The position numbers and the translations under genes are program-made. Below the pieces are notes generated by a model. It saw only the letters and a program-made list of their open reading frames with translations. It was not told the origin of the DNA and ran no database searches. From a virus: a stretch of DNA of 35,416 nt. Below, piece after piece: positions 2,995 through 35,140 of the stretch; the stretch's first letter is position 1, and each line of letters starts with the position of its first letter. The stretch lies in IMG/VR virus record IMGVR_UViG_3300048586_000227, positions 1 through 35,416 of that record. The stretch is one strand, 5' to 3'.

Positions 2995-3662
2995 TGGGTT
3001 AACTCCTGCCAGAAGGTGAGGGGGGAGGCGGAGAGCAGTAGGGCGCCAACGGTCATGCTGTGACTGTGGTCAGGGTGCTCACTGTCGAGCAGCTGTGCGG
3101 CGAGGCTGGCCGGCTCGCCATAGCCGTGCCAGCTCCACAGCATTCCGGCAAGGCTGGGCTTGTTGGCCAGTGCCTCATCCAGCTCGGCCACCCTGGCGGC
3201 CCGCTTGGCGGCCAGCACGGCCAGCTTGGCGCGGGTGGTCGCCGGTGCCGGCGAGTTCCCCTCGCTTTCCTGCAAGGCATCATTGGCCGCTGTCAGCACC
3301 AAGCGGCGGCGCAGCGGATCCCAGATCAGCTGCTCACCGGCCTTCCAGCGCGGTATCATGGCCGCCGTTGGCTGGGCCATGGTGTCGTTGTTAGCCGTCA
3401 GGCGGCGCAGTGTGGCGCACCATTCCGGCAGCGGCAGCACGGCGCATACCTGCGCCAGCTTGGTGGCCAGTTCCTGCTCACTGGTACCGGTAACCAGCCA
3501 GACCACCGCATGGAGCGGGCCGACAGGAAGATGGGGATCTGCCCCATCCTGCAGCTTGGCGGCCATGGCTTTGATGGCGTTGGGGGCGGATAGAGTGTTC
3601 TGGTCACCCTGCTGCTGACCGATGCTGTGTTGATGTGGGGTTACAGTGAGGCAATTACCCAT
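2991..3662 (-). CDS. Hypothetical tail-region protein
   Basis: The ATG at 3662 overlaps the tail fibre stop codon (TGATG) and is preceded by GGAGG, so it is preferred over a TTG one codon upstream. The 223-residue product is Ala/Leu-rich and helical (for example a run around residues 155-180 rich in Ala, Arg and Lys), with no signal peptide. It occupies the slot where many P2-like phages encode a tail fibre chaperone, but it does not resemble gpG-type chaperones, and the fibre upstream carries its own chaperone domain. Function unknown, probably tail-related from the operon. Confidence 0.65.
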   Translation of the reverse strand: MGNCLTVTPHQHSIGQQQGDQNTLSAPNAIKAMAAKLQDGADPHLPVGPLHAVVWLVTGTSEQELATKLAQVCAVLPLPEWCATLRRLTANNDTMAQPTAAMIPRWKAGEQLIWDPLRRRLVLTAANDALQESEGNSPAPATTRAKLAVLAAKRAARVAELDEALANKPSLAGMLWSWHGYGEPASLAAQLLDSEHPDHSHSMTVGALLLSASPLTFWQELTQ

Positions 3663-6600
3663 CAACTAGCCTCCAGCTCAGCGATGCGGGTTAGTAGGTG
3701 TTGGTAATTCCTGCGTTGCAGGGCTGCCTCCAGAGCTAATGCCTCCTCATAACGGATGCTATACAACTCACCCGCTTGCAGTTCTGGCTTAACCACTTCT
3801 GTCCATGCCTCTTGGATACACTCGCCATCGTCATTAAATTCGGCAGGATGATCCTGGGTAATGGCGTGCTGGTATTCCCATTTGTCAAAGCAGAAGAATG
3901 CGTAATCGTGAGCGTTAAGACCGTGTCTGGCGAATGCCTCCTTCACCCGTTGTGCGATCACCCCTACGTGCCATCGAGCCTTGTCGTCACCCTTCTCTAT
4001 GATGCGGCTGATAATCTGATAGCTTACCCAGTCCACCTCTCCCCACGCATCCAACATCGCCTCAGTTATGACGAATGGGCGGGTTTTAGTAATCTCATCA
4101 GAGGTAATGGTCATGGCCGTTTGCATTGCGCCATTGGCCCACGGTGTAGACACCGTACCAAGCGATCCGTTGTTGGCCGTTGACGGGGAGGCATTTCCAC
4201 CAAAGGATGCGTTTTTTGAGGCTGCGAAAATAGTGAACGCAGCGACACCAGCCAGATCCTTGAAGGCATGGTTTGCACCAAGGTAGTCGTTGCCACCATC
4301 CCCAAATGCCCTGAAACGCTGGATATCTTGCTTATCTCGCAAATCCAGGCGGTTATTTACTTCATCGAGATGCAAGCCCTTGGCACCGTTAAACCATTTA
4401 ATGGAGATCGGAGTCTCACGCCAGTTCTTTATGATGAAAGACCCATCGGTGAATCTGGTGGGGAACTGCCGATAATCGTTGAACATGTCTCGCGGAGTGA
4501 AGCTCGTCAGATCACATGTGTCCTGCAGATCTGAACAGGAATATCGGATATTACCGGTATAGCCTTGCGTCTCTGTCAGGTCGTAGGCGATAACTACGCC
4601 ATTCTCATGCTCACAGCCAATCAGCTTAACATCTCGGCAATCCCCCCAGATTCCATTCAGTCTGTCAAACACCGTCTGAAACTTCGTGTTGATGAACTTT
4701 AAGTTCCGCATCGGATAACCATCTATTTCGAAGGCGCCCGCTTCACCTATTCCAAGATCGGCAGACTTGGTGCCACTGGTGTGGTCCAAAGCGCAGAACA
4801 CACAATCAGTAAAGACGGAGCCACTGAAGTTGTTCCCCTGATTGGGTGCACGAATCACTCCAAGTTCGGCTGGCAATGTGGGTGTCACCCCCGTCAGGGT
4901 GATCTCGTTACCGGCCACACTGTACCCAGTGAAGGTGTACTTGCTTGAGCTGCCAGAGATGGTGAATTGGTTCTGTGCCGTCAGGGTCCACGATGAGTTG
5001 TATTTGCAGGTAACTGTTGTGGTGGTGTTTGATACGACATCAATTTGCGGGGAGTTGCGCTGAATAATTCCACGGCGCCCCTGCCCCAGCAGCTTGTGGA
5101 ACTTGGTCCGTTCCGGGTTTCCCTTGAGCGTGTATGAGCCATCGTTCTCTGTCACTAGCCAGCCGGCCATCCTCCAGTACCCCACCGACTGTACGTTATC
5201 GACCACTGCATCACTGGAGTCATAAACCCAAACCCCCACATCCCAGTCATCGCCGAGCGTCAGACTGGCAGCGTCGTTGTAGCCGTCGATACCATTTTTG
5301 CTGACCATTACCCGCAAGTTTTTCAGTTGCGCACCGCGCTGAACAGTAACGGCAACGGAGAATGGCTTGGCCGTAGCGGGTGCGCCACCAACTGAGTCAT
5401 TGTTAGTAAAGTCGGTGAACGGGTAAGGCACTCCGCCCACGGTCTTGGTAGGACGGGCATTGTGCAAATTGAGACAGGTCTTGTTCTTGGTACCGGTGCC
5501 TGTGAATACCAGATGGGTGCCCTTGTCCCAGGCCTTCAGCAGCCGCTCTGGATCTGGCCGGTAGGCGTCCCAGTAGTCTATACCATCGCCAAGCAGCGTA
5601 ATTCCCGGCGGAATTATGAAGTCTTTGGTCATTTTGTAGCGCCCAGCGCGTAGCCATACCACTGACGCTCCATTGTCTAACGCCCACTGGATAGCATTAA
5701 TAACCGCATCGGAGCTATCAGTGGTAAAGGTCGGATCCGCGTTGAATGGAGCGTCGTTCGCACAAACTATGTATTGCAGTCGTTTTCCTGCGGATCCAGT
5801 CTTGTAGGTTTCTGTGTAAGAGAAACCTACAAGACCTGCGCCCGACCACATGCCAATGGCATGTCGCAATAGGTCCCCACTTCTGGCGACCCAGCCCGGT
5901 GTCGATGGGTCTTCGTTAATCTCAACAGCCTTCGGTAACTCACCAAGCCATGCATAAACTTTGGTGCCGTCTTTGTTCAGCAATACCTGATCGGTTGTCT
6001 CTATGTTGTTGGCAGTGCCGAACTGGCCGATCAGGTCATAGCCCGCCTCGGCCATCGAGCGCTTCCAGAGCGCGAAGGTGTCAGGGATGACGCCTGAACC
6101 GCCGCTGCCACCCTGCCCACGGCCATCAATAACAGTGCTGTCAGCCTGCACAGTGGCCAGCTTGGCCACGTAGTGCGGATAGCCGCTTTCGTCCACATGG
6201 TCGGTCAGATCCGCCACGCTGGTGATGATGGTGAAGTGGTTCTGATGCTCAGAGAGCAGCGAACCGGACCGGTGCACATCTACCCAGACGCCGATCGGCT
6301 TGGTGCCCGGGTGAATGACCTCCGGCTGTTTCAGCTCGATGCGCAGGCCTCCAACAATGGCCACGCCCTGGGTGACCTGATGGCCGCCATCCTGCTGCAC
6401 GACCTTGAAACCATCACCGATGAAGGTGTGATGGCCATAGAGCTGGCTGGCCAGCTGGCGCAGATCTTCATCCTGCCCGCGCAGGCGGGCGGCATAGTCA
6501 ATCTGCCAAGTGCCGGCATCCACGTTGGTGAGGGTCGCCTCGGCTGCCTGGTCGTAACCCATCAGCATGGACTTGACCAGGGAGTTACCGGTCTGGCCGG

Positions 6601-19293: not shown

Positions 19294-21114
19294 GTGGCGT
19301 ATCCCGAAGAGATCCGCAATGCTGCGCGGGGACTCTACCTTAAGCGATGGACCCCCCAGGAGATCAAGGACGAACTGGGGCTGAACTCCTGCCGCATCGT
19401 CTACTACTGGGCCGAAAAGCTCGGCTGGCGGGATCTGCTTACCGATGAAGCGGTGGAGGATGCCATTGCCCGCCGCCTGCACTCCTTGTTGTGTCGTGAG
19501 AAGAAAACCAGCGCCGAGATGGATGAGATCGACAGGCTGGTCGGCCACCATGTCAGCCTGAAAGAGAAAGCCCTCAAGTGGGCCGAGCGCCAGCAGGCGC
19601 TCACCACCCGCCGCGAAAGTGGTGATGAACCAGCAGCCGACCGGCCGCGCCGTGGCCGAGGCGGCCAGGATAGTGGTAGCAGCAAAGGTAAGGGCGGCAA
19701 GAAGGCCAAGAACGAGGTCGGCCACCTGACAGCCGATGACTTTGCCGAGTGGCTGGGTACCTTGTTTGGCTACCAGCTGCGCTGCCGTGAGGCGAAGAAC
19801 GACCCGGCCTTGCCGCGTACCCGCAACATCTTGAAGTCGCGTCAGGTCGGCATTACCTACTACTTCGCCGGCGAGGCGCTGGAAGATGCGGTGCTGACAG
19901 GTGGCAACCAGATTTTCCTTTCCGCCACCCGCGCCCAGGCGGAGGTGTTCCGCTCCTATATCTGCAAGATTGCCCAGACCTTCCTTGGCGTCACCCTGAC
20001 CGGTAACCCTATTGTGCTGTCGAACGGGGCCGAGCTGCACTTCTGCTCTACCAACTCCAACAGCGCCCAGTCTCGTTCCGGCAACGTTTACATCGACGAG
20101 TACTTCTGGATCCCCAACTTCGAGAAGCTGTCGGACGTGGCCAGCGCCATGGCGACCCAGAGCCGCTGGCGCAAAACCTACTTCTCGACCCCATCGAGCA
20201 AGGTTCACGAAGCGTACCGGTTCTGGACCGGGGATCGCTGGAAGGGTCAGCGCCCGAGCCGTGTGGCCATCGACTTCCCTGGTGAAGATGAGATGCGCGA
20301 TGGCGGTCGGGTCTGCCCCGATCGCCAGTGGCGCTACGTCATCACCATCGAGGATGCCCTACGCCTTGGCTGCAACCTCATAGACATCGAGGAGCTCAAG
20401 GACGAGTACCCGGAGGAGGTGTTCGATCGCCTCTACATGTGCCGGTTTATCGACGATGCCCTGTCGGTGTTCAAGTTCCAGGATATGGAGCGGGCAGGGG
20501 TGGACCCGACCAGGTGGGAGGACTACAAGCCCGGGCGGCCAGACCCATTCGGTCGGCGAGAGGTATGGATGGGCTACGACCCGAGCCGCACTCGCGACAA
20601 CGCCACCCTGGTGGTGGTTGCCCCGCCCACGGTCGCCGGCGAGCGGTTCCGGGTGCTGGAAAAGCACTACTGGCGCGGGCTCAACTTCCAGTATCAGGCG
20701 CAGGAGATCGAGCGGATCGCCAAGAAGTTTCGGGTCACGTATCTGGGGGTCGATGTGTCCGGCATTGGCTCAGGGGTCTATGACCTGCTTAAGCCGGTAT
20801 TCAAAGGGGTGTGCCACCCCATCAACTACAGCATCGAGAGCAAGTCGCGGCTGGTACTCAAGATGATCGACGTAGTGGAGGCCAACCGCATCGAGTGGGA
20901 CAGCTCGGATCGGGATATTCCGCTGGCGTTCCTTGCCATCAAGCGCAGCACCACCGGCGGCGGCCAGATGACGTTCAGGGCTGCCCGAGACAACGTGACC
21001 GGACACGCGGACGTATTTTTTGCCATCGCCCACGCCGTGGCCAATGAGCCGCTCGATACCAACCGCAAACGTAAATCCACCTGGACAACCAGCGAAGTTA
21101 AGAAGGCAGCATGA
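19294..21114 (+). CDS. Terminase large subunit P (ATPase and nuclease)
   Basis: The 606-residue protein starts at GTG with GGAGG upstream. Residues 1-50 are the helix-turn-helix typical of P2 gpP. After a basic, low-complexity linker (~105-142), the ATPase domain shows a Walker A variant KSRQVGIT (181-188) and Walker B VYIDE (265-269). The C-terminal RNase H-like nuclease has acidic residues in GYDPS, GVDVSGIG and GHADVF. It powers DNA packaging and cuts cos with M. It overlaps the next gene by ATGA. Confidence 0.93.
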   Translation: MAYPEEIRNAARGLYLKRWTPQEIKDELGLNSCRIVYYWAEKLGWRDLLTDEAVEDAIARRLHSLLCREKKTSAEMDEIDRLVGHHVSLKEKALKWAERQQALTTRRESGDEPAADRPRRGRGGQDSGSSKGKGGKKAKNEVGHLTADDFAEWLGTLFGYQLRCREAKNDPALPRTRNILKSRQVGITYYFAGEALEDAVLTGGNQIFLSATRAQAEVFRSYICKIAQTFLGVTLTGNPIVLSNGAELHFCSTNSNSAQSRSGNVYIDEYFWIPNFEKLSDVASAMATQSRWRKTYFSTPSSKVHEAYRFWTGDRWKGQRPSRVAIDFPGEDEMRDGGRVCPDRQWRYVITIEDALRLGCNLIDIEELKDEYPEEVFDRLYMCRFIDDALSVFKFQDMERAGVDPTRWEDYKPGRPDPFGRREVWMGYDPSRTRDNATLVVVAPPTVAGERFRVLEKHYWRGLNFQYQAQEIERIAKKFRVTYLGVDVSGIGSGVYDLLKPVFKGVCHPINYSIESKSRLVLKMIDVVEANRIEWDSSDRDIPLAFLAIKRSTTGGGQMTFRAARDNVTGHADVFFAIAHAVANEPLDTNRKRKSTWTTSEVKKAA

Positions 21115-21884
21115 AGAACGATATCAGTCAGTTGACCGAGGAACACTTTCACGAATGGATCAGCACCCTGTTTGGCTACCAGCTGCGCTGCCGTGAGGTC
21201 AAGCTAGACCCGTCACTCGCGCCCATCCGCAACGTTTTGAAGGCTCATCAGGTCGGCATGTCTTATTACTTCGCCGGAGAGGCTTTTGAAGATGCCGTAT
21301 TGACTGGCGACAATCAGATTTTCTTGGCAGAAACCCCAGAGATGGCCGATGTCTACCGGACCTATGTCTGCTTGATAGCAAAGAGGTTCCTCGGCGTTAC
21401 CCTTACCTGCAGCCCCATCGTCCTGTCGAACGGCGCGGAGATCCATTTTCTTTCTCTTGATGACCTGACCTTTGCTGGAAAAGCTGGCCACGTATACGTC
21501 GATGAGTATTTCTGGATTCCTGATTTCGGAAAAGCGCTGCACTTGGCCGGCGCTATGGCTATGCACAAGCGCTGGCGCAAGACCTACTGTTCAACGCTCT
21601 CTGAGCGCCGCGGTATGGCGCGTAACTTCTGGAGCGGGGATCACTGGAAGAACCTGTACCCAGGCCGAGATGCGATCACTTTCCCTAGCGAATCATCGTT
21701 GCGCGATGGCGGCCAGCTTTGTCCCGATCGGCAGTGGCGCTATGTCATCACCATTGAGGATGCCGTTCGACTCGGTTGCAACCTCATGGACATTGATGAG
21801 CTCAAAGACGAGTACTCGCAGGAGGCGTTCAATTTCCTCTTCATGTGCCAATTCAAAGACTCCCAGGAGAGTTCTCTCGCATGA
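21111..21884 (+). CDS. Stand-alone terminase ATPase-domain paralogue (P')
   Basis: The 257-residue product aligns along its whole length with residues ~140-390 of the large terminase just upstream, by eye about 60% identical. It lacks the N-terminal helix-turn-helix and the C-terminal nuclease. Its Walker A is KAHQVGMS instead of KSRQVGIT (the Arg is lost and Thr becomes Ser), while the Walker B VYVDEYFW and the PDRQWRYVITIEDA segment are kept. It begins in an ATGA overlap with P and ends in an ATGA overlap with the portal gene, so it is translationally coupled and not debris. Its function is unknown: packaging regulator, inhibitor or inactive motor subunit are possibilities. Confidence 0.85.
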   Translation: MKNDISQLTEEHFHEWISTLFGYQLRCREVKLDPSLAPIRNVLKAHQVGMSYYFAGEAFEDAVLTGDNQIFLAETPEMADVYRTYVCLIAKRFLGVTLTCSPIVLSNGAEIHFLSLDDLTFAGKAGHVYVDEYFWIPDFGKALHLAGAMAMHKRWRKTYCSTLSERRGMARNFWSGDHWKNLYPGRDAITFPSESSLRDGGQLCPDRQWRYVITIEDAVRLGCNLMDIDELKDEYSQEAFNFLFMCQFKDSQESSLA

Positions 21885-23749: not shown

Positions 23750-23914
23750 TCAGTTAACAGGCTTTTTCTCTTGTTCTTCTAAGCGAATTCCCAATTCGCA
23801 TAGTGTGGCGATAGCACGGCACATTCCTTCTCGATCCTCGATTTTCAGATCGGGAGTGACCCGAGCTATATCCCTGATTGAACTGTAAATCTCTGTTTGA
23901 ATCCCCGTCTGCAC
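23750..23914 (-). CDS. Small hypothetical protein, 54 residues
   Basis: An open frame from GTG at 23914, preceded by a perfect AGGAGG four bases upstream, encodes 54 residues (MQTGIQTEIYSSIRDIARV to LGIRLEEQEKKPVN). The product is charged, probably all-helical, with two cysteines and no signal or membrane segment. It lies 75 bases upstream of the secreted repeat protein on the same strand and may share its transcript. I do not recognise it. The strong ribosome site is the main support. Confidence 0.55.
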   Translation of the reverse strand: MQTGIQTEIYSSIRDIARVTPDLKIEDREGMCRAIATLCELGIRLEEQEKKPVN

Positions 23915-24071: not shown

Positions 24072-24434
24072 ATGAAAAGAAAAACAAATCCTGCCCGGTC
24101 CGCCCGGGCCTATGTGGTTCGCGCAAAAAGCACCACCAAAGCCGTGCTGAAAAGGCATGGCCTCACGAACAGTGCCACAGGCAAGATCATTGATGTGGCG
24201 CCGGCTACTGTTGGCCGCTGGCTGGATGACCAGACCCGCGCCTTTTTCGATCTTGAGCACGCTGCCGCTATCTGTATCCATCTCGGGATCCCTGTCTCTC
24301 ACCTGCTCCCCCCTGGTGACTGGCTGATTGGACACCACCAGAGCCCGCAGCGGGATCAATTGATGGCCCTGAGCGAGGATGAGATTGATTGGTTGCTCGC
24401 CGTTCGGGCCGGTGCCATGGCCTGTTATCGCTGA
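24072..24434 (+). CDS. Helix-turn-helix regulator (Cro/CI-like)
   Basis: The 120-residue product has a basic N-terminus (MKRKTNPARSARAYVVRAK) and a helix-turn-helix around residues 30-60 (LKRHGLTNSATGKIIDVAPATVGRWLDD), followed by a helical C-terminus (LEHAAAICIHLGIPVSHLL). The ATG at 24072 has GGAG at a good distance; earlier in-frame starts have none. It stands alone on the plus strand, facing the end of the early operon. The role is probably control of the neighbouring accessory genes or of itself through the 16-bp palindrome upstream. Confidence 0.65.
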   Translation: MKRKTNPARSARAYVVRAKSTTKAVLKRHGLTNSATGKIIDVAPATVGRWLDDQTRAFFDLEHAAAICIHLGIPVSHLLPPGDWLIGHHQSPQRDQLMALSEDEIDWLLAVRAGAMACYR

Positions 24435-24512
24435 TGTCATCGGTGTTCCTGGTTGCCTGGTGGTTAAGTCACTGACCAAGCCTGTCACATAGGCCGCCAG
24501 TAATTTGGTAAT

Positions 24513-24545
24513 AAAATCCCCTCCAGCATGGCTGGATTTTTGTTT
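24513..24545 (+). terminator. Terminator after the HTH gene
   Basis: TCCAGC / GCTGGA (24525-24540 region) closes on ATG and is flanked by an A/T-rich base and followed by TTTTTGTTT. It lies about 90 bases after the HTH stop codon. Confidence 0.65.
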
Positions 24546-24704
24546 GAGGCTCTAGGTTTTACCGCATAATAATCAGGTTGTTTATTGCAAGTCAAACATC
24601 CCAATCACACATCATGACTAATAACACTTATCTGTTATTTTTTGACGTTATAAGCAAATGAAAGGCAGCTATCCCGAACCACAAAATAAGTCGACGCGAC
24701 AAAC

Positions 24705-24732
24705 CAATTCACCTAATCACGCTGGTGAATTG
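24705..24732. repeat. 9-bp inverted repeat in the non-coding stretch
   Basis: CAATTCACC (24705-24713) and GGTGAATTG (24724-24732) are separated by ten bases. It lies in the 644-bp gene-free stretch 24435-25078. The sequence around it is AT-rich with several stop codons in all frames; only very short open frames such as one of 29 codons at 24658-24747 exist, without a good ribosome site. Confidence 0.5.
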
Positions 24733-24803
24733 ATCACTAGACGCTAGACGATTGAGCAAAAGCCGCATAAACGCTGGCCTTGCTCGCTTTCTGCTCATCA
24801 AAT

Positions 24804-24833
24804 CTTTAAACGGCCTTTAAACCACCTTTAAAC
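24804..24833. repeat. Three phased 11-bp repeats (CTTTAAAC)
   Basis: CTTTAAAC starts at 24804, 24815 and 24826, an exact 11-bp period, which puts each copy on the same face of the helix. The surroundings are AT-rich. It precedes the 20-bp tandem array by about 50 bases, and the two may act together as a protein-binding array. Confidence 0.7.
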
Positions 24834-24886
24834 ACTATTTACAGATTTAAAACCTTGAAAATATTTCAGGCCAGACCATGAATATT

Positions 24887-24966
24887 TTGATAGTGGAGCA
24901 GTTATCTTGATAGTGGTGCAGTTATTTAAGAGTGGGGGCTGTTATTTTAGGGTTGGTACGGTTACC
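24887..24966. repeat. Four tandem 20-bp repeats (iteron-like)
   Basis: Four contiguous 20-bp units run from 24887, 24907, 24927 and 24947. The first two differ at two positions (TTGATAGTGGAGCAGTTATC and TTGATAGTGGTGCAGTTATT); the third and fourth are more diverged but keep AGTGG/GTTGG and GTTA at fixed places. There are no unique spacers, so this is not CRISPR. Direct repeats of about two helical turns in AT-rich DNA are typical of iterons and multi-copy operator arrays. It lies between the convergent HTH gene and early operon terminator. Confidence 0.75.
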
Positions 24967-25016
24967 TGTTTTAGTATTCTGGATATACAAAGTATATAAA
25001 ATATATATACAAATAA

Positions 25017-25044
25017 TATTAAAAAGCCCCTCAGTGAGGGGCTT
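25017..25044 (-). terminator. Terminator of the early operon
   Basis: A 9-bp stem (25024-25032 with 25036-25044; AAGCCCCTC / GAGGGGCTT) on the minus strand is followed by TTTTTAATATT. It lies about 35 bases after the last early gene. On the plus strand it is followed by GATGCTTTTTC, so it may work both ways. Confidence 0.85.
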
Positions 25045-25078: not shown

Positions 25079-25411
25079 TCACAGCGCCATGGCCTTGTCG
25101 CCCTGGGTGTGCCAGCACTCCGCCTCTCCCTTGAAGGTTCCGCCGCATCCTTCCGGCAATGCACAGTCGCAGTTTTGGCAGGACTGCTTTTTCAGCTCGG
25201 CTTCCTGTTCCAGCCAGCGTTCCCAGTCTCGCCGGATCAGGGTGCTGATGTACTCGTCGGCGGAGTAGGGCTCACCGCTGCCAGCTCGAGCGATGCGCAG
25301 GTGGTCCAGCTGCTGTCGCTCCCGTTCGGAGAGCGCCACCTCCACCCGCTTGATGCCGAGAGCCGCCCGTCTGGCCCGCTGGGCCTGCTTGCGTTTGGTG
25401 GCTTGGTTCAT
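25079..25411 (-). CDS. Hypothetical protein with basic N-terminus and Cys-rich C-terminus
   Basis: The 110-residue product has a very basic first part (KRKQAQRARRAALGIKRVEVALSER) that resembles the strand and first helix of a ribbon-helix-helix fold. A Trp/Glu-rich helix follows, and a C-terminal cluster of five cysteines (78, 81, 83, 89, 99) plus His101 could bind zinc. It is the last gene of the early operon and overlaps the previous one by ATGA. Function unknown; nucleic acid binding is an inference. Confidence 0.62.
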   Translation of the reverse strand: MNQATKRKQAQRARRAALGIKRVEVALSERERQQLDHLRIARAGSGEPYSADEYISTLIRRDWERWLEQEAELKKQSCQNCDCALPEGCGGTFKGEAECWHTQGDKAMAL

Positions 25412-34428: not shown

Positions 34429-34475
34429 GCCTTTTAAAATCAGTAACTTATTGATTTATAAAGGTGCCAAACGGT

Positions 34476-34572
34476 TTCAAAATCCGCCGATGAATAATCG
34501 TGTCGGTTCGAGTCCGACCCCGGGCACCATTTAGAATTCAATGACTTAAGGCCACCCAAGCGGGTGGCCTTA
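34476..34572 (+). repeat. attR: attR core with tRNA-Leu 3' fragment
   Basis: This is the exact 97-bp duplicate of 20-116. It carries the 3' half of tRNA-Leu without the 5' half, so it cannot be a functional tRNA. The upstream base at 34475 and the base at 34573 differ from the left copy. It marks the prophage's right end. Confidence 0.93.
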
Positions 34573-34653
34573 CGTTTTTCTGTGACCAAGTGGCGACAGA
34601 GATTTCGGTGATCGATTCGGTCTCTACTTAAATGCTGGTTGTTGGCCCACGGT

Positions 34654-35132
34654 GTGACCGGACACATTTCATAGAAAACCTATTTTCCGTGGGGCAGGCC
34701 AGCCAGTGCACCCAGGCCGCAGCGCCCTTTCAAAATTTCAGTTATCAAATCAGCCCTCATTGGACCTAACCGGCTGAAACAAAAAGCCTTCTAGCTGTTC
34801 CCTCGCGGCAAACCGGATCCTTCCCGATAGTTCAAATTCCCACGGAAAGTACGCTCCTCCCAATACATTCAACGACTTACGCTTTCGACGCCGCTAGTCA
34901 GCCCCCTTTCAAACTGTAAAACCCTGCAATTGCTTTCGATCCTTTCAGATCCTCGCCAAGCCGCAGATCCTTTATCTGGCGCGGTCTGGGCCTATGGAGT
35001 TGCGGTAATCCACTTTTGCAAAAAATTTTATTGGTGTGGTGCGCAGGCGGGAGCGGAAGAGCGCGGATTCCGTGACGCAGCGGTGGGCGCCGGGAGGCTG
35101 TGAGCGTGCTCAGGCTTCACGTATGATGCAGC
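34654..35132. repeat. Right copy of the ~500-bp diverged direct repeat
   Basis: This is the counterpart of 221-718, at about the same distance from the att core. It keeps the 10-bp inverted repeat pair (34684-34693 and 34839-34848), the AT-rich TTGCAAAAAATTTTATTGG block and the GCGCAGGCGGGAGCGGAAGA block. It contains no gene I can support. It ends abruptly at GTATGATGCAGC, where IS-derived sequence begins within about ten bases. It is either host DNA or the left end of a second related element. Confidence 0.75.
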
Positions 35133-35140
35133 ACCTGATG

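Follow-up and report, generated by a model that had tools for sequence, protein, structure and literature searches.

Two phased repeat arrays, with units of 11 and 20 bp, are found in the slot between an HTH gene and the GPA operon in a 35,416-nucleotide stretch of DNA (the window), an IMG/VR virus record that represents a phiO18P-like Aeromonas P2-type prophage with P2-like gene order. The two arrays stand in a 79–80 bp register, are conserved across phages, are replaced by unrelated blocks in other phages and are linked to the HTH gene. We suggest, with a probability of about 0.45, that the arrays form the core of a putative cis-acting, allele-specific element that binds protein at the DNA level, and that the block carrying them, T1, is one allele of an optional, largely non-coding cassette in this slot. 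A phased array of binding sites is in itself known; the setting, interchangeable half-kilobase blocks in one slot of P2-type phages, is unusual, and literature searches gave no account of arrays of this kind in P2-like phages.

The 11-bp array (positions 24804–24847) shows the unit CTTTAAAC exactly at 24804–24811, 24815–24822 and 24826–24833, followed by a fourth unit, ATTTACAGATT (24837–24847), which is degenerate in the window; several relatives have CTTTAAAGATT or ATTTAAAGATT in its place. Tandem Repeats Finder reports 2.7 copies of an 11-bp period and 2.2 copies of a 20-bp period. When the slot was shuffled 2000 times with its dinucleotides preserved, none of the shuffles contained a set of three identical 8-mers, whatever the spacing between 8 and 30. 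Thus the three exactly periodic 11-bp copies named in the original prediction are confirmed. The prediction also described four contiguous 20-bp units; these are present (24884–24963), but only units 1 and 2 (ATYTTGATAGTGGWGCAGTT) are close copies (90% alike), units 3 and 4 being decayed. The 20-bp periodicity, with 29 of 40 matches, is nonetheless greater than that of every shuffle at all lags from 8 to 40 (shuffle maximum 28). The DNA of the arrays is AT-rich, with 33–40% GC versus 57–69% in most neighbouring genes, and both arrays are situated between two convergent genes, the HTH gene (24072–24434, plus strand) and a gene for a 110 aa protein (25079–25411, minus strand). The description of the stretch as gene-free needs qualifying: a weakly supported small open reading frame (24709–24801, minus strand) abuts the 11-bp array.

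The arrays are part of a conserved block of approximately 535 bp (allele T1, 24510–25044) that is bounded by two terminator-like hairpins, one after the HTH gene at the left edge (24522–24536, plus strand) and a bidirectional one at the right edge (25024–25044). The most conserved sub-block, GTGAATTGATCACTAGACGCTAGACGATTGAGCA (24720–24758), contains an imperfect palindrome. Two further conserved sub-blocks are AATAACACTTATCTGTTATTTTTTGA (24620–24645) and a segment at 24562–24601 with a sigma70-like promoter match, TTGACT-18-TATTAT, on the minus strand from 24595 to 24566. This leftward promoter match is aimed antisense into the HTH gene. A motif, CATTTGCTTATA (24649–24660, minus strand), was first noticed by eye. 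The least stable 50-bp segment of the whole 35.4 kb (24975–25024) lies just past the right end of the 20-bp array; the next least stable one begins at 24816.

DNA comparison and pattern scans of viral contigs show the T1 block also in L007/L009, L039, L041 and L056, and it is present in 1 of 37 Aeromonas genomes (G443); L056, L039 and L041 correspond to G041, G030 and G032, respectively. The T1 sample consists of six copies, those of the window and five other phages, at least two of which come from metagenome contigs. DNA identity between the window and its relatives is 68–78% over the aligned length of the block, and the six-copy alignment contains several invariant sub-blocks. The 11-bp array is conserved in the six phages, and its start precedes that of the 20-bp array by 80 bp in five T1 copies and by 79 bp in one. 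Units 1 and 2 of the 20-bp array are kept in all six phages; units 3 and 4 vary and are partly lost in relatives. Conservation in relatives had been proposed as a check on the arrays, and five relatives retain the period, the consensus and the spacing; the iteron-like double array in a P2-type phage is real and conserved. This conservation is found between phages that are otherwise distant: the terminases of G041, G030, G032 and G443 share 39–42% identity with that of the window and the portal proteins 34–37%, and several structural genes of the window are not detected in these four. Outside of the named phages, no T1 block is found in 50,697 phage records, and all T1-type blocks known to date are from Aeromonas P2-type phages. 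A loose TTTAAAC pattern, when scanned against the whole collection, gives matches in unrelated AT-rich genomes. Three Aeromonas genomes gave repeated matches to GTGGAGTTGTTATTTAAAGAGTGG; these lie in coding DNA, apparently of an IS transposase as judged by eye, and a transposon end was rejected.

The equivalent slot of other Aeromonas P2-like phages contains unrelated AT-rich blocks, T2 to T5, the allele types having been sorted partly by eye. T2 (L021, L026, L030 and L047) combines an 11-bp array, whose core is GATATC, with a longer repeat pair 42 bp apart. T3, found in A051, L013, L035, L038 and, by similarity, LPM4, carries an 11-bp TTAATATC array; A051 has an additional 22-bp array, and in L038 TGTACA recurs every 11 bp. 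T4 and T5 have their left halves in common and are without a clear 11-bp array, T5 having a 21-bp pair; thus the shared layout is not universal. Both T1 and T3 are present in the phiO18P structural lineage as well as in a second structural lineage, and thus alleles move between lineages. Since approximately half of the relatives carry no such block in the slot, the block is dispensable. The phages phiO18P (Bielevirus), A051 and vB_AsaM_LPM4 all display the P2-type gene order of the window; A051 and vB_AsaM_LPM4 have allele T3 in the equivalent slot, whereas phiO18P itself has no such block. No annotated features lie under the T3 matches of A051 and LPM4, and none of the alleles T2 to T4 was found in the 37 Aeromonas genomes. 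Similar CRTTTGYNYATA words are present in blocks T1, T2, T3 and T4, and the word ACATCCTAAC is present in the otherwise unrelated T3, T4 and T5 blocks and in one T1 copy (L041); both words, found by eye or by exhaustive word counts, are leads only. In L019, the slot upstream of the 110 aa gene contains a 26-bp unit, TTAGCACCCTTTCGGGTTAGCTTTCA, head to tail approximately 8 times.

The HTH gene codes for a 120 aa XRE/lambda-repressor-like protein (phrog_18342) and is genetically linked to the block. Of 21 block carriers, 17 have it upstream, compared with 4 of the 28 other phages (Fisher p = 5e-6, uncorrected for relatedness). All T1, T3, T4 and T5 carriers have it; T2 keeps only a divergent 54 aa conserved open reading frame (phrog_26740, function unassigned; 23750–23914, minus strand, in the window), which occurs in T2 phages lacking the HTH gene. 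The linkage could be simple co-inheritance of the slot. The original prediction offered the arrays as binding sites for the HTH protein or the Cys-rich protein on either side; as specific readers, these two are unsupported. The window (T1), G002 (T3), and G001 and G003 (T4) share an HTH protein with 100% identity, and this protein was rejected as an allele-specific reader since identical proteins stand beside three unrelated alleles. The 110 aa protein (phrog_536) has, by sequence, a ribbon-helix-helix-like layout and a Cys-rich tail; the best fold matches of its modest-confidence model are the AtaR and ParD antitoxins, with non-significant E-values of 4–6. Its predicted DNA-contacting strand is unchanged across alleles, and it was likewise rejected as an allele-specific reader. 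GPA, the replication protein (91.6% identity between the window and Aeromonas phage phiO18P), is of two types that are independent of the allele. A two-way comparison of the proteins of the window and G041 gave no T1-specific phage gene except frames inside the block. As no phage gene follows the allele, the reader is outside the phage or recognises something these comparisons missed. That GPA, the HTH protein or the 110 aa protein alone acts as the specificity factor is improbable; the reader may be a host protein or a protein from another mobile element. In LPM4 (L248), the annotated hypothetical protein UGC97291 (3526–3969) is antisense to an unannotated HTH gene (3565–3930, plus strand); the annotated strand is probably the wrong one.

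The arrays could instead be an ordinary operator or promoter, that is, regulator sites upstream of a small leftward gene or leftward transcript, a reading that is possible but doubtful. The candidate gene at 24709–24801 (30 aa from TTG, 29 aa from ATG) begins beside the 11-bp array. It is stop-free in six of six sequences, the other five frames showing 6 to 25 stops, and it has the highest mean substitution score; the leftward promoter-like match at 24595–24566 is kept in form in relatives, and short open reading frames, noted by eye, follow the T3 array too. However, the score of 0.71 is hardly above those of two other frames (0.57 and 0.58), the length varies from 30 to 64 aa with a variable start codon, and there is no clear ribosome-binding site or family match. 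In addition, the array leaves no promoter space ahead of the start codon, and T2 and T4 appear by eye to be without a comparable open reading frame. The coding evidence is thus weak. Should the block instead be a non-coding RNA gene with the repeats acting in the transcript, the terminator-like hairpins that bound it and the promoter-like matches inside would have a ready explanation, but the covariation term is unfavourable, with changes on both sides in 4 of 100 predicted pairs, and no Rfam match is above gathering score. This makes the RNA reading very improbable, and a structured RNA gene with covarying helices or of a known RNA family was rejected. Even less credible is a packaging (cos) region with the repeats as terminase-binding sites. 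The cos site of P2 adjoins the portal gene, and a P2-type cos is located near the array slot in several relatives. However, L039 contains both a P2-type cos and the array, approximately 1.3 kb apart, and no P2-type cohesive-end sequence is found at the array slot of the window. The phiO18P-type cos is found in the window at 613–628 and 35046–35061, with one mismatch to the annotated cosL; the array region is therefore not cos, and a packaging-site identity for the arrays was rejected.

A secondary or conditional replication origin, at which an initiator from the host or a plasmid would use the iterons and an adjacent duplex-unwinding element, is unlikely. The T1 block resembles the iteron arrays of plasmid and phage origins in having tandem sites approximately 20 bp apart beside very AT-rich DNA, and the iteron-like 20-bp units adjoin the least stable, easily melted 50 bp of the window. 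The T1 block differs from iteron origins in that it is dispensable and has neither a recognised initiator nor a DnaA-box cluster: no iteron-type initiator is recognised among the phage proteins examined, no nearby Rep initiator co-varies with the array, and the slot has one DnaA-box match with one mismatch, compared with 22 across the window, and lacks an exact IHF site. The site scan led to rejection of an IHF or DnaA cluster. Many relatives, about half, lack the block, which weakens the secondary origin offered in the original prediction; no plasmid shares it, and the GPA type does not track the allele, so a GPA-linked origin was rejected as well. Partition sites offer another comparison. 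ParR/parC centromeres, as in R1 and pSK41, consist of 11-bp or 20-bp repeats bound by ribbon-helix-helix proteins. The slot shares with these phased direct repeats of 11 bp, a 20-bp array, several specificity classes and an adjoining candidate ribbon-helix-helix-like gene (110 aa), whose product has a fitting helix layout. It differs from them in that no ParM-like motor is seen among the proteins examined, the DNA-contacting strand of the neighbouring protein does not follow the allele, and prophages replicate with the chromosome. No actin-like or tubulin-like motor gene is found among the window proteins examined, a subset of the open reading frames. All five alleles give no match in 72,556 plasmids (PLSDB), and a plasmid-derived oriT, partition or incompatibility region was rejected. 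The arrays might also serve as incompatibility, decoy or self-immunity DNA, either by titrating a protein made by a competitor, whether phage, satellite or plasmid, or by guarding against a co-resident defence protein, although we consider this improbable. The allelic diversity at one site, the dispensability, the DNA-level character and the moron-like linkage to a regulator gene are consistent with such a role, for which the aba DNA of BstA prophages is a precedent. Aba is a 63-bp DNA with terminal direct repeats that overlaps the bstA start and is specific to each BstA homologue (PMC8585504). Like T1, it is a short DNA element with direct repeats, and it acts as DNA in a homologue-specific manner; T1 differs in its length of approximately 535 bp and in that no BstA-like gene is recognised among the proteins scanned. 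Against the role, no matching protein was found, no matching site occurs in the 72,556 plasmids or, beyond the named phages, in the 50,697 phage records, and there is no convincing defence-family match for the seven proteins tested, which are encoded near the array or in the early region. Self-immunity DNA of the aba kind is an attractive but speculative parallel.

Several observations concern the record itself. Its ends (16–722 and 34472–35137) are related copies, 81% identical, of a region that includes the phiO18P-type cos; the record thus covers more than one unit, as a tandem or a remnant prophage would. Between terminase and portal, at 21111–21884 of the window, the ATPase domain of the terminase is present a second time in truncated form; phiO18P has the same extra copy, annotated as a truncated terminase. 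The P2-type cos (CCCCGCCTCGCC) is present at position 4740 of L012 and in similar places in many Aeromonas P2-like phages, approximately 20 loci, and approximately 100 bp after it there are repeated GATCCTT words, possibly terminase-binding sites.

If the arrays are the core of an allele-specific protein-binding element, sites one turn (11 bp) and approximately two turns (20 bp) apart would allow cooperative binding on one face of the DNA, and the bound protein could form a nucleoprotein complex beside the easily melted segment at 24975–25024. Sequence classes with a partly shared layout may then represent different recognition specificities, as in immunity, incompatibility and partition sites. 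We infer both the outside reader and any biological output. Approximately half a kilobase of largely non-coding intergenic DNA is rarely kept by phages, and the T1 block is alike between phages with approximately 40% terminase identity and swapped for unrelated blocks elsewhere. A broader and rather speculative proposal, which we hold to be improbable as it stands, is that the slot in Aeromonas P2-type phages is a multi-allelic specificity locus of non-coding DNA, whose interchangeable phased-array blocks would be recognised by a diversifying protein, encoded by the host or by a competing mobile element, and would decide the coexistence of prophages, satellites and plasmids. Identification of a reader protein would reveal a system of allele-specific DNA recognition in P2-type phages and would provide a direct test of prophage competition through cis-acting sites rather than proteins.
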